Shown here: positions 10,020 through 14,959 of the stretch, piece after piece
How positions within the stretch are numbered: the first letter of the stretch is position 1
Layout of the letters: each line of letters begins with the position of its first letter
Source: Lysobacter sp. K5869
Lineage (GTDB): Bacteria > Pseudomonadota > Gammaproteobacteria > Xanthomonadales > Xanthomonadaceae
Assembly (NCBI RefSeq): GCF_018847975.1
Contig: NZ_CP072597.1
Coordinates: forward strand, 3,077,001 to 3,141,000
DNA: 64,000 bases
Reading direction: 5' to 3'
Translations under genes and position numbers: made by a program
The notes under the pieces: model-generated
Databases searched by the model: none
What the model saw: only the letters and a program-made list of their open reading frames with translations
Told to the model about the DNA's origin: nothing

Positions 10020-10631
10020 TCACTCCAGCGCGTTGACCAACAACTCGTCGAAACGCCGCGCGATGTCGGCGATGGTCTGCGCCTTGTCCTGGCCGTTGAT
10101 GATCCGCCGCGCCTCTTCGTAGTTCGGCAACTGCCCCGGCTTGAAGTAGTTGTCGAGCTTCTTGCCGGTGAACCAGCCCTGCTTCATGCCCTGCATGGCG
10201 ATGGCGTAGGCGATCTCCGGCTTCTTCGCGTCCTCGGGCTTGGCGACCAGATCCACGCCGAGGAACTTGCCGGCGCGGTCGTAGTTGGTGCGTCCGGTGA
10301 GCTGCACATAGCCGCGGCCGTGGAAGCGCGCGCCGTCGCCGCGCTTGGTGTTGCCCAGCGCCTTGCCGATGCGCGTGTCGGGGCCGTAGAGCTTCTCGAA
10401 CCGCTCGTCGCTGCCGAACTCGTCGATCGGCCGCAGCGTGTGCGCGGTTTCCCACTTGAACGTCGCCAAGCAATACGCGATCTGGTAACGGTGCACCGGA
10501 TTGACGCTGAAGCTGGCGTCCTGCTCGATCCGGCCGATCAGAAAGCGCAGCGCCTGCGCGAGATCGTCGCGCAGCGGGCCGAAGCGCCGGCGGTAGCCGT
10601 CGAGAAACTGCTCGTCGTCGAAAGCGAACAT
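10020..10631 (-). CDS. GH19-like (chitinase / endolysin-type) hydrolase
   Basis: 203 residues. The motifs YQIAYCLATFKWETAHTLRP and HGRGYVQLTGRTNYDRAG are those of the lysozyme-like superfamily containing GH19 chitinases and phage endolysins, with the Glu of KWETA as likely catalytic acid. No signal peptide is seen (start MFAFDDEQFL), so if the target is peptidoglycan it must leave the cell by another route. The ATG at 10631 is chosen for its strong GGGGAGGA ribosome-binding site. It stands alone; neighbours do not suggest a prophage. Chitin versus peptidoglycan cannot be decided here. Confidence 0.8.
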   Translation of the reverse strand: MFAFDDEQFLDGYRRRFGPLRDDLAQALRFLIGRIEQDASFSVNPVHRYQIAYCLATFKWETAHTLRPIDEFGSDERFEKLYGPDTRIGKALGNTKRGDGARFHGRGYVQLTGRTNYDRAGKFLGVDLVAKPEDAKKPEIAYAIAMQGMKQGWFTGKKLDNYFKPGQLPNYEEARRIINGQDKAQTIADIARRFDELLVNALE

Positions 10632-10732
10632 CCTGTCCTCCCCATCCGTGGATCGCGGCGTTCGCCGCGCGCGGCGGGGGCCGCGCATTCCATCGAACGG
10701 GGGCGCCGGGGGCGGGCGGCCAAGGTGGGGAT

Positions 10733-11752: not shown

Positions 11753-12505
11753 TCAGAAATAGACCACGGCGTTGGCGCGCATCTGGCGCAGCAGGGCGGC
11801 GCCCATGTCCAGGAACGCGGCCGCGTCGTCGCTGCCGGCTTCGGCCGCCAGCGCGCGCAGTTGCTCGCGCGCGCTCAGTTCCGGCGATTCTTCCAACCGT
11901 TGCAGCAGGCGGAATGCGAGCGGGCTCAGTTCGGAGAAACGCACTTCGCCGTCGGCTTCGCGCCGCAGCAGCAGCAAGGTCGGCGCCGGCGGCGGCTGCG
12001 CGGGCTGGAAGTCCGGGCCGAGCCGGTGCACCGGCCAAGCGTAGGCCAGCGGCCACGCCAGCGGCGACAGGCGCGGCGCGCGCTCGAGCAGGTCGGCGTC
12101 GGCGAGGCCGGTGTCGTCGCGCGGCGCGCTCGCTTCGCTAAGCTGCAAGGCCAGCTCGACCCATTCGTAATGCGCCAGTTCCAGCAGGAACGGCGGATCG
12201 ATCTCGTCGAGTTCCTGCAGATAGCGCTGGAACTCGCGCGCGATCTCGGCGAACAGCGGCGTGTGGCAGCGGTGGTCGCGATAGAAATCGCGCACCAGGC
12301 GTTCCCAGCGCTGCTCGCCCAAGGTGCGCTCGATCACCGGGAAGTTGCCCGACAGCAGCCCCAGGATGTTGTTGAACAGCAGGTCGCGATAAATGCCCAG
12401 GCGCCGGTCTTCGATGCCGCCGGGCGCGGGGCTCGTGGCGGGATCGCGCAGATGCCGGGTCAGTTCGAACTGTTGCGCGCGCAGGCGCGAGGGGGCGTCG
12501 CTCAT
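11753..12505 (-). CDS. HvfC/BufC-family RiPP maturation partner (DUF2063)
   Basis: 250 residues. The N-terminal DUF2063 domain (LRAQQFELTRHLRDP, YRDLLFNNILGLLSGNFPVIERTLGEQRW, FYRDH) is the known partner of MNIO/DUF692 enzymes. In related systems this protein binds the precursor and the oxidative enzyme. A C-terminal domain (about 110-245) of mixed helices follows. It starts 4 bases after the DUF692 stop, so the two are translationally coupled, and it is the last gene of the operon. Naming as bufC or hvfC depends on the nomenclature used, so no symbol is assigned. Confidence 0.9.
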   Translation of the reverse strand: MSDAPSRLRAQQFELTRHLRDPATSPAPGGIEDRRLGIYRDLLFNNILGLLSGNFPVIERTLGEQRWERLVRDFYRDHRCHTPLFAEIAREFQRYLQELDEIDPPFLLELAHYEWVELALQLSEASAPRDDTGLADADLLERAPRLSPLAWPLAYAWPVHRLGPDFQPAQPPPAPTLLLLRREADGEVRFSELSPLAFRLLQRLEESPELSAREQLRALAAEAGSDDAAAFLDMGAALLRQMRANAVVYF

Positions 12506-12509
12506 GGGC

Positions 12510-13400
12510 TCAGGCGCGGGCGCGGCGGGCGGACGCGGATTCGCGCGCGGCCGGCGCGGTCTCGCGCAGGATCCGGCGCACGATGCCGAGTTCGTCGACC
12601 AGCTCTTCGTACGGCGGGAAGTTGAAGTCGCGTTCCAGCAGGGTCGGGCGCGGCCCGAACAGGCGGTAGGCGTCGGCCAGCAAGTCCCAGACTTCGTGCT
12701 TGACCGGCGCGCCGTGGGTGTCGACTTTCAGATCGTCGGCTTCGTCGTAATGGCCGGCGACGTGCAGATAGGCGATGCGCTCGTGCGGCATGGCCGCGAT
12801 GAACGCGCGCGCGTCGTAGCGGTGGTTGATCGAGTTGACGTAGACGTTGTTGACGTCGAGCAGCAGATCGCAATCGGCCTCGGCCAGGACCGCGCGGGTG
12901 AACTCGATTTCGCTCATTTCCTGATGCGGCGCGGCGTAGTAGGAGGCGTTCTCCACCGCGATGCGGCGGCCGACGATGTCCTGGGTGCGGCGGATGCGCG
13001 CGGCGACGTGATGCACGGCTTCCTCGGTGAAGGGAATCGGCAGCAGGTCGTAGAGATGGCCGTCGTCGCTGCAGTAACTCAGATGTTCGCTGTAGCAGGC
13101 GACCGAATGCTCGTCGAGGAAACGGCGCACGCGGGCGAGGAAAGTCTCGTCCAGCGGCGCGGTGCCGCCCAGCGACAGCGACAGGCCGTGGCAGACCAGC
13201 GGATACCGCGAGGACAGCTCGCGCAGTTGCTCGCCGTAGCGGCCGCCGACGCCGATCCAGTTCTCCGGCGCCACTTCGAGGAAATCGAAATCGCGCGCGG
13301 CGCCCGGCGCATGCGGCGCGGACTGCAGCGGGCCCAGCAGGGCCCGCCGCAGGCCGAGACCGACGGCATCGGGAGTCAACGAAGTCGTTGCGTCGGGCAT
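12510..13400 (-). CDS. MNIO (DUF692) peptide-modifying iron enzyme, HvfB/BufB family
   Basis: 296 residues forming a TIM barrel typical of multinuclear non-heme iron oxidative enzymes. Metal-ligand motifs are in place: [58 protein letters not shown] and LERDFNFP. Family knowledge: these enzymes modify cysteines in precursor peptides to oxazolone/thioamide or thiooxazole groups. It lies 27 bases downstream of the Cys-rich precursor gene and 4 bases before its DUF2063 partner, the canonical order. All expected His/Glu/Asp/Asn motifs are seen, so it should be active. Confidence 0.94.
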
Positions 13401-13427
13401 GCCGATCCAGGCCTCATCGTGCCGCGA

Positions 13428-13856
13428 TCAGATCGAACCGCCGCACTTGCCTTCGCCGCACTTGCCTTCCGCGGCCTTCTTCGCGGCCGGGGCGGCGGCC
13501 TTCTTGTCGGCGCCGCACTTGCCTTCGCCGCACTTGCCCTCGGCGCCCTTCTTCTTGTCGGCGCCGCACTTGCCCTCGGCCTTCTTCTTATCGGCGCCGC
13601 ACTTGCCTTCGGCCTTCTTGGCGCCGCAGCTGCCTTCGGCCTTCTTCTTGTCGGCGCCGCAGCTGCCTTCGGCCTTCTTGGCCGCGTCGGTGGCCTTGGC
13701 GTCGGCGGCCTTCTCGGCGGTCTGCGCCTGCTGGGCGCCGAGCAGGTAGCCCTGCGACAGGTCGCTCATCGCGAACGCGGAAGCCGACAGGCTCAGGCCG
13801 CCGAGCAGGGTGGCGCCGAGAGCGAGGGCGACGGGCTTGTTGATTTTCTTGGACAT
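13428..13856 (-). CDS. Bufferin/HvfA-type RiPP precursor with eight EG(K/S)CG motifs
   Basis: 142 residues. A signal peptide (about 1-29, ending SASAFA) leads into MSDLSQGYLLGAQQ, a segment typical of the family. The rest is Lys/Ala-rich low complexity with two EGSCG and six EGKCG motifs: Cys66, 77, 86, 97, 109, 114, 133 and 138, all inside motifs. In characterised relatives such cysteines are converted to metal-binding heterocycles and the exported product binds copper. The ATG has AGGAG at 7 nt. It is first in the operon with the DUF692 and DUF2063 genes. No DoxX-like fourth gene follows. Copper as ligand is inferred from relatives. Confidence 0.92.
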   Translation of the reverse strand: MSKKINKPVALALGATLLGGLSLSASAFAMSDLSQGYLLGAQQAQTAEKAADAKATDAAKKAEGSCGADKKKAEGSCGAKKAEGKCGADKKKAEGKCGADKKKGAEGKCGEGKCGADKKAAAPAAKKAAEGKCGEGKCGGSI

Positions 13857-14070
13857 GCGTTCTCTCCTGGTGGCGACGGGCGGATGCTCCGCCGGTGTTG
13901 TGTAGGCGGGCAGTACCCGCGGTAAGCGAAAACAGCGTAGTGCCTGAAACGGTACGGAGCTTAGTGCGATTGCGGGGTACTGCGGGGTGACAGCGTTGGC
14001 GCCCTGGCCGGTCGGCGGCGCGGGCTGGGTTCTGGGCAGGGATACGGCGCGGGCCGCGGCGCGGATGCAG

Positions 14071-14586
14071 TCACGGCGAGAGATACTCGCGCGCCAGCAC
14101 CCGGGCCCGGTGCAGGCGCGATTTGACCGCCTCGCGGCTGATCCCGAGTTCCTCGCCGATCTCGGCCACGGTCAGGCCTTCCAGGTCGCGCAGCAGGATG
14201 ATTTGGCGGTAGTGCGCGGGCAGCGATTCCAGCGCGGCGGCGACGTCGTGGCGCCATTCGGCCGGCTCGGGAGTGACGACGGGCGCGATTTCCTCGGTGA
14301 TCGGCTGGCCGCTGAGCAGGCGGCGGCCGCGCTTGAGCCGGTTGCACTCGCGTTTGACGATGCGGAAGGTCCAGGAGACGAAGCATTCGAGCACGCGCAG
14401 GTCGCGCAGCTTGCGCGAGACCGCGATCAGGCTCTCCTGCACCGCGTCCTCCACGTCGTTGATGACGCAGTGGAATTCGGCGTAGCGGCGCAGGTCCTGG
14501 CGCGAGTGCTTGAGCACCCGCTCCAGTGCGGCCGTGTCGCCCGCGCGGGCGGCGGCCAGATCTCCATTGGCCAGTGACAGCGTCAT
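14071..14586 (-). CDS. ECF-type RNA polymerase sigma factor
   Basis: 171 residues with sigma region 2 (about 10-80, YAEFHCVINDVEDAVQESLIAVSRKL) and region 4 (about 118-165, LPAHYRQIILLRDLEGLTVAEIGEELGISREAVKSRLHRAR). No anti-sigma gene adjoins it. The ATG at 14586 is preferred over an upstream TTG because of the family-like start and GGAGG 12 nt upstream. It lies 214 bases upstream of the RiPP precursor in the same direction, and ECF factors are common beside such operons, so control of the operon is a reasonable inference. Its own promoter region carries a palindrome at 14622-14639. Confidence 0.9.
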   Translation of the reverse strand: MTLSLANGDLAAARAGDTAALERVLKHSRQDLRRYAEFHCVINDVEDAVQESLIAVSRKLRDLRVLECFVSWTFRIVKRECNRLKRGRRLLSGQPITEEIAPVVTPEPAEWRHDVAAALESLPAHYRQIILLRDLEGLTVAEIGEELGISREAVKSRLHRARVLAREYLSP

Positions 14587-14959
14587 GTGGCGGCGGTTCC
14601 TCCGTGGAAGGTGGAATATACCCGGCAAGGGCTTGCCGGCTATGGATCAAGAGTGGGGTGCAGTGCGCAAGGATTCGCGGCCGTGTTGCGCGATTGCAGC
14701 GCGATTCACAACGCATTCAGCGCGGCGGCGCTTGAAAACGGTTGCAGCGGGGGCGGGGCGGATCGCCGCGATTCGGCGAGAGTCGCGCAGCCGACGGGCG
14801 GCGCGAGCGCGGCGCGGCTCGCTCCCGCCGCATGTTGCACCGCAGCGCGGCATCAGCGCGCGAGGGCGGCCCGCAAACGGAACGGCCCGCCGCGCGGTGC
14901 GCGGCGGGCCGTCGTCGGCCGCACGTCGGATCGAAGCGGGCGCGCGCGGCGCCCGGATC
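14587..14959. other. Spacer between phoU and the ECF sigma gene
   Basis: The 373 bases hold the sigma promoter/palindrome at one end and a strong hairpin at the other (arms 14882-14893 and 14901-14912). On the minus strand the hairpin is followed by TTCCGTTT and may terminate phoU. The middle is GC-rich with no gene I can support. Confidence 0.5.
14615..14639 (-). promoter_or_regulatory. Operator-like palindrome with -10 element upstream of the ECF sigma gene
   Basis: On the minus strand TATATT (14615-14620) is immediately preceded by the palindrome CCGGCAAGCCCTTGCCGG (arms 14622-14629 and 14632-14639). A repressor or activator bound there would overlie the promoter. Confidence 0.45.

Follow-up and report, generated by a model that had tools for sequence, protein, structure and literature searches.

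A captophorin operon of Lysobacter headed by its own lone, perhaps self-sensing ECF sigma factor

The window analysed here, a stretch of 64,000 nucleotides from the soil bacterium Lysobacter sp. K5869 (contig NZ_CP072597.1, positions 3,077,001 to 3,141,000), carries on its minus strand a four-gene operon in which the gene for an extracytoplasmic function (ECF) sigma factor is followed by those for a peptide precursor, an MNIO enzyme and a partner protein with DUF2063 and a RiPP (ribosomally synthesized and post-translationally modified peptide) recognition element, or RRE (Table 1). The adjacency of MNIO (HvfB) and PME1 (HvfC), both above their family cut-offs, places the operon in a published class, Buf_EGKCG/oxazolin or captophorins, to which 5-thiooxazole is now assigned. 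We consider it probable that this captophorin operon is driven by its own lone ECF sigma factor, which perhaps does the sensing itself. The captophorin gene set being already published, the new part is the sigma factor. It is the unusual component by its fixed linkage to the operon, an invariant pair of cysteines, a promoter motif of its own and a predicted regulon, and an initial annotation of the window had understated it.

Matches to the sigma factor (E <= 1e-15) are found in 53 of 198 genomes of the family, and at least 47 of these 53, among the MNIO matches listed (120 rows), have an MNIO gene in the same orientation 443-880 bp downstream. Of the six remaining sigma-positive genomes, two stop at contig ends (G116, where the precursor is still present, and G120). 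Of the 56 sigma rows, two are fragments of a single broken gene (G023, which enters the 47 once) and one is a weak second match in G027. With MNIO genes in 154 of the 198 genomes, the enzyme is often present in the family where the sigma factor is not. Its nearest named relatives are from Lysobacter; at the level of the order, matches at 1e-25 are present in 24 of 299 genomes, 21 of them in the family, and at the level of the class in 5 of 321 including the window's own genome, with only one other strong match. Sigma and NrsF genes accompany Buf1 but not Buf2 clusters (PMC12452194, section 14); section 15 of the same paper, on EGKCG clusters, mentions no sigma factor, and a literature search that did not reach figures and supplements found no account of the present one. 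Two distant relatives of the sigma factor outside the family (L192 and L194) by eye adjoin genes for VTT-type membrane proteins; an AhpD-like frame is also near L192, and L194 has an MNIO match with a DUF2282-like precursor.

The initial annotation described the sigma gene as lacking an anti-sigma gene. This agrees with our survey, in which none was recognised beside it here or in 22 neighbourhoods, on the basis of called genes and the beginnings of their sequences, short of a family search of every neighbour. In all 46 linked orthologues (L148, with a divergent MNIO, and L166, a broken gene, are excluded), residues H39, C40 and C81 are unvarying, and C68 varies. Both C40 and C81 are kept in 24 of 24 sigma sequences down to 41% identity, H39 nearly so, and the pair is present in all 120 matches listed, of 1655 database relatives; a narrower pattern also requiring neighbouring residues matched 117 of the 120. 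None of the 15 most distant ECF relatives viewed has both cysteines together. By eye, L012, L014, L015 and L017-L019 among the distant ECF relatives have a Cys near the place of C40, and L167 has one near that of C81.

We propose that, with no anti-sigma factor, C40 and C81, aided by H39, may restrain or activate the sigma factor through a change in metal binding or thiol-redox state. Of all steps in the model, such direct sensing, which would replace an anti-sigma factor, is at once the weakest and the one of greatest interest. Metal-sensing sigma factors without anti-sigma factors are known, namely CorE and CorE2 (ECF238) and OrbS, and if our proposal holds they share with the present protein the use of on-board cysteines. 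Theirs are located in a C-terminal extension (in CorE also in the linker; PMC8999054, PMC9023288), whereas the pair described here is in sigma2 and the protein has no extension: it ends at REYLSP after region 4, with no Cys there and without the Cys-rich C-terminal domain of CorE-like ECF238 members.

A candidate ECF-type promoter of the sigma gene is found by comparison of 47 sigma-linked loci (the linked orthologues plus L085, which a contig end truncates). The motif G[AC]A[TC]C-N18-CTCTT occurs 5´ of the sigma gene in 29 of them and in none of 200 mononucleotide shuffles; when spacers of 10-26 were tried, lengths other than 18 gave no match, or one each at 20 and 25. It is missing from all 17 precursor upstreams without an adjacent sigma gene, of which two are in sigma-positive genomes (the second locus of the window's genome, G000, and G007) and 15 in sigma-negative ones; precursor starts at seven loci were corrected by hand. 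On this comparative evidence, the sigma factor would transcribe its own gene from GAATCC-N17-CTCTT and, through assumed read-through, the operon. The initial annotation had placed a palindromic promoter ahead of the sigma gene. The palindrome exists, but its place is 3´ of the likely -10, and the promoter-like sequence that is conserved is the one just described. A conserved hairpin in the sigma leader was considered and rejected, as RNAalifold paired nothing in the leader or the palindrome in 10 sequences from the nearest loci. The palindrome just 3´ of the -10 would suit a sigma factor that is always active and is set only by its amount, through another regulator at its promoter, much as EcfQ of Bradyrhizobium is thought to be governed through an unidentified transcription factor (PMC3420878). 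Such control is unlikely in our view, since the pairing of the palindrome is not conserved in those 10 relatives, whereas the Cys pair is invariant.

The motif also occurs elsewhere in these genomes. A looser form ending in CTCTTG is no commoner genome-wide than expected by chance (7 in G000 against 15 for a reversed-pattern control). The sharper form GAAYCSNTT-N14-CTCTT has 30 matches in the 198 genomes, against 10 for its reversed control (4 in sigma-positive and 6 in sigma-negative genomes), and these are distributed as 24 in 18 of 53 sigma-positive genomes versus 6 in 6 of 145 sigma-negative ones (Fisher 1.6e-7). Without the 10 matches directly before the sigma gene, the numbers are 14 in 10 of 53 versus 6 in 6 of 145 (p 0.0019). 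Among the 14, a DUF417 gene is downstream in three genomes (Pfam DUF417; the top NCBIfam match is RclC, under its cut-off). Others precede genes for MsrP (equivalog above cut-off), cytochrome b561 (the next frame reads as YceI), a DUF2282 bufferin precursor (with a frame that reads as MNIO behind it), a small Cys-rich protein of KCG type, an oxidoreductase with a VTT domain (L260, resembled by a frame at L248), a YgaP-like protein that is itself encoded just before the sigma gene in G068, and, in G129, the captophorin precursor itself. No convincing gene was seen at three matches (L255, L257 and L259), of which the window's genome has two, and the six in sigma-negative genomes have no such genes beside them. 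In a single genome, G121 (L251, L258, L260), the motif is followed by genes for a bufferin precursor of the DUF2282 type, a small KCG-rich protein and a VTT-oxidoreductase.

Two of these candidate targets were followed across the family. DUF417 genes are present in 12 of the 198 genomes, and their upstreams carry the strict motif in 4 of 7 and a relaxed one (last -10 base changed) in 6 of 7 sigma-positive genomes, compared to 0 of 5 sigma-negative ones. For msrP, checked in 70 of 128 MsrP-bearing genomes, the relaxed motif was seen in 7/12 versus 0/18 of the first 30 loci, and the addition of 40 more resulted in 8/42 versus 0/28. With the discovery genomes removed, the difference remains for both DUF417 (5/6 versus 0/5, p 0.015) and msrP (7/41 versus 0/28, p 0.036). 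By this comparison, the sigma factor may also drive the RclC-like DUF417 gene and, in other genera, genes for MsrP, bufferin and redox proteins, a target set that would amount to an envelope copper/oxidant stress regulon.

A similar set of genes is under a different sigma factor in Caulobacter, where sigma-F/NrsF (ECF16) controls YedY (MsrP-type) and DUF692/DUF2282 operons from the promoter GTAACC-N16-CGAA (PMC3511200). Both systems have an ECF sigma factor over MNIO metallophore operons; that of Caulobacter has a membrane anti-sigma factor with sensing cysteines, whereas here no NrsF was found and the motif is another one. Neither the 47 sigma upstreams nor the 47 sigma-precursor gaps contain GTAACC-N15-17-CG[TA]A, and G000 has no PF06532 (NrsF) match. 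The sigma-F-type sequence GTAACC-N16-CG[TA]A does occur in 4 of the 17 precursor upstreams without an adjacent sigma gene and in 4 of 5 sigma-negative DUF417 upstreams, versus 0 of 7 sigma-positive ones. The five genomes that have it all belong to one genus (g19), and all have NrsF. Eight of the 17 precursor loci are in NrsF genomes, four of them with the sigma-F-type promoter, and none of the nine in genomes without NrsF has it. NrsF scores above cut-off in 24 of 145 sigma-negative versus 2 of 53 sigma-positive genomes (p 0.017), and in 0 of 9 Lysobacter genomes searched, other anti-sigma families not being included in the search. Judging from these sequences, control of the precursor and DUF417 genes seems to lie with sigma-F/NrsF in one genus and with the lone sigma factor in Lysobacter. 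As a tentative extension, to which we give somewhat less than even weight, lineage-specific minimal ECF sigma factors might sense copper or thiol oxidants via the sigma2 Cys pair, without an anti-sigma factor, and in Lysobacter and its kin might have taken over a metallophore and oxidant-repair regulon that is run by sigma-F/NrsF in a sister genus.

Several points weigh against a lone, self-sensing sigma factor. The evidence consists of sequence and genome comparison, and the relatives are drawn from related, statistically non-independent genomes. The motif pattern was designed after viewing the sigma gene's own upstreams, and its strict form is missing from 18 of the 47. It is present in one of 47 sigma-precursor gaps (G129, overlapping the sigma stop codon), which is why read-through to the operon is assumed. 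Both DUF417 and msrP were first noticed through the motif. At msrP, the strict motif is non-significant (4/42 versus 0/28, p 0.14), and none of the nine Lysobacter genomes, the window's included, has the motif there. We thus rejected msrP as a target in the window's genome, where the predicted regulon is small and comprises the captophorin operon and DUF417. The low counts in gaps and sigma upstreams would also be explained if the CTCTT motif belonged to another regulator and the sigma factor had other targets; this appears improbable, as the motif follows the presence of the sigma factor over the 198 genomes and is absent from the DUF417 upstreams of all five sigma-negative genomes.

Further points concern the cysteines and the anti-sigma factor. 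The AlphaFold model of the sigma factor is poor (mean pLDDT, the predicted local distance difference test, 64.7; pTM, the predicted template modelling score, 0.36; weak at residues 38-46) and was not used to judge how close C40 and C81 lie. The Cys pair is also found in relatives with no MNIO match within the sequence fetched (L147, L164, L165, L192, L193), and it thus marks a group of sigma factors, not the operon. Finally, the search for an anti-sigma gene concerned the neighbours of the sigma gene, and a distant one may exist. ECF sigma factors are usually paired with anti-sigma factors (PMC7907618, PMC8999054), and an ordinary one encoded elsewhere could control the protein, C40 and C81 serving only in folding or RNA polymerase contacts; that the pair is not operon-specific fits this view. 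We regard it as rather unlikely given the 22 neighbourhoods without a recognised anti-sigma gene and the scarcity of NrsF in Lysobacter and other sigma-positive genomes, with the limits on both searches given above.

Control by a lone sigma factor also sets the operon apart from its relatives. In Haemophilus influenzae, the ECF sigma factor RpoE2/HrsE controls a DoxX-DUF692-DUF2063 operon (PMC7907618) along with methionine sulfoxide repair under hypochlorous acid. It differs in having a 67-amino-acid cytoplasmic anti-sigma factor and a sigma gene apart from the operon. Fontiphorin (FonABC) and oxazolin (HvfABC) have in common with the present system a precursor with EGKCG repeats (and, here as read by eye, a signal peptide), an MNIO, a DUF2063-RRE partner and the same NCBIfam families; here, a lone ECF sigma factor heads the operon, some motifs are EGSCG and the copy has no DoxX. 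Captophorin-type gene sets are widespread, with more than 24,000 MNIO-PME1 loci (PMC13097082, section 7), and the regulators of such operons in the papers cited here are sigma/anti-sigma pairs. With an anti-sigma factor apparently missing, a sensor made of two cysteines within the sigma core offers a compact candidate, and the predicted promoter and regulon, together with the sigma-F/NrsF exchange, bear on how one stress regulon passes between sigma factors.

The assignment of the operon as such is straightforward. All four genes are in place, the enzyme, the partner and the precursor repeats with family scores above cut-off, and the profile scores agree with the initial annotation of an HvfABC-family RiPP metallophore operon with an ECF sigma factor. 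As it had also stated, a complete MNIO and DUF2063 partner follow with tight spacing, the gaps being 27 nt (precursor-MNIO) and 4 nt (MNIO-PME1). The MNIO matches MbnB_TglH_ChrH at 349 bits, and its best match among solved structures is 3BWW; for PME1, the single solved relative found is 3DEE. The precursor reaches 57.5 bits with the repeat domain NF050137 (KCGExKCG_twice; cut-off 19.5) and 46.7 bits with the full-length HvfA equivalog NF050188 (cut-off 95). It is a member of the wider family through its repeat domain and falls outside the HvfA equivalog. Residues 1-29, read by eye in the translation, resemble a Sec signal with AFA at its end. The Buf_EGKCG/oxazolin precursors described number about 2,000, with lengths of 31-506 residues (PMC12452194), and EGKCG is the most frequent 5-mer of the captophorin class (PMC13097082).

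The precursor has exactly eight Cys, each within an EG(K/S)CG motif as initially noted (EGSCG at residues 63 and 74; EGKCG at 83, 94, 106, 111, 130 and 135). This motif-rich form had been singled out as noteworthy but is ordinary: sigma-linked precursors (n=47) have 4-11 motifs each, and EG[ST]CG is found in 24 of the 47. Among the chemistries that had been named, thiooxazole is now favoured over thioamide/oxazolone; fontiphorin carries 5-thiooxazoles, oxazolin was revised to the same group, and the class was named captophorins (PMC13097082). The two EGSCG sites are probably modified too, because FonBC accepted Ala, Arg or Thr for the Lys before Cys (PMC13097082, section 12). The same section gives a mass change of -8 Da for two repeats. 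R18-R19 and D258-F259 of the MNIO resemble the specificity and base residues of FonB, as a motif match unaligned to FonB, where the double Arg and Asp-Phe are tied to Lys-Cys substrates (PMC13097082, section 14). By analogy with characterised relatives, PME1 would recruit the Sec precursor, the MNIO would convert its eight EG(S/K)CG cysteines to 5-thiooxazoles prior to export, and the exported periplasmic product would bind Cu. All precursors, 47 of 47 sigma-linked and 17 of 17 others, have a Gly-Tyr pair inside residues 21-60, just past the putative signal peptide, which the partner protein might recognise. EF-hand-like stretches, identified by pattern, are present in 22 of 47 sigma-linked and 14 of 17 other precursors, often between EGKCG repeats; EF-hands fused behind a short EGKC domain have been described (PMC12452194, section 15).

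Table 1. Features of the operon and its upstream region, in window coordinates
Feature	Coordinates	Strand	Evidence
ECF sigma factor, 171 amino acids	14071..14586	-	TIGR02937 75.5 bits
Sigma-precursor intergenic region; GC hairpin 13879-13893 ahead of Shine-Dalgarno	13857..14070	-	
Captophorin/oxazolin-type precursor, 142 amino acids, 8 Cys, 2 EGSCG + 6 EGKCG	13428..13856	-	
MNIO enzyme, HvfB family	12510..13400	-	NF003818 435 bits, cut-off 360
PME1/HvfC partner, DUF2063 + NGO1945_C	11753..12505	-	NF050145 304 bits (cut-off 142), PF09836, PF22106
Predicted ECF-type sigma-gene promoter GAATCC-N17-CTCTT	14649..14676	-	Motif comparison across sigma-linked loci
Palindrome, 12-bp arms, ATACCCGGCAAG/CTTGCCGGCTAT, in likely 5´ leader of sigma mRNA	14618..14643	none	

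A conserved hairpin 5´ of the precursor gene was rejected. Hairpins were found in 48 of 64 precursor upstreams (shuffles 6.7), yet also at 28 of 46 ordinary gene starts (shuffles 14), and a looser control gave 47 of 90. By a strict rule, a short GC hairpin is present 16-34 nt before 47 of 64 precursor starts and before 22 of 46 other genes, and the hairpin in the window is not clearly special.

The shared order of the neighbourhood is phoU-sigma-precursor-MNIO-PME1-(DoxX)-RNase T, with phoU in 22, RNase T in 27 and DoxX in 16 of 28 relatives (one DoxX query, E <= 1e-4). The missing DoxX-like fourth gene, pointed out in the initial annotation, is truly absent here, yet this is ordinary: the 12 relatives without DoxX include the closest ones, which makes this a repeated loss, and we rejected DoxX loss as a special feature. 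The genome (5.97 Mb) holds five DoxX matches, one of them beside a second captophorin locus (L227; G000:C1:3476000-3483000) with DoxX upstream, a precursor and an MNIO, and no sigma gene. The precursor of this locus has an EF-hand-like stretch between two EGKCG pairs. Among the relatives, the genes 5´ of the sigma gene vary from genus to genus, and the shortest sigma-precursor gap is 45 nt. Elsewhere in the window, a frame at 10020-10688 on the minus strand has a weak match to glycoside hydrolase family 19 (GH19) chitinase (PF00182, 28.6 bits; cut-off 25.5).

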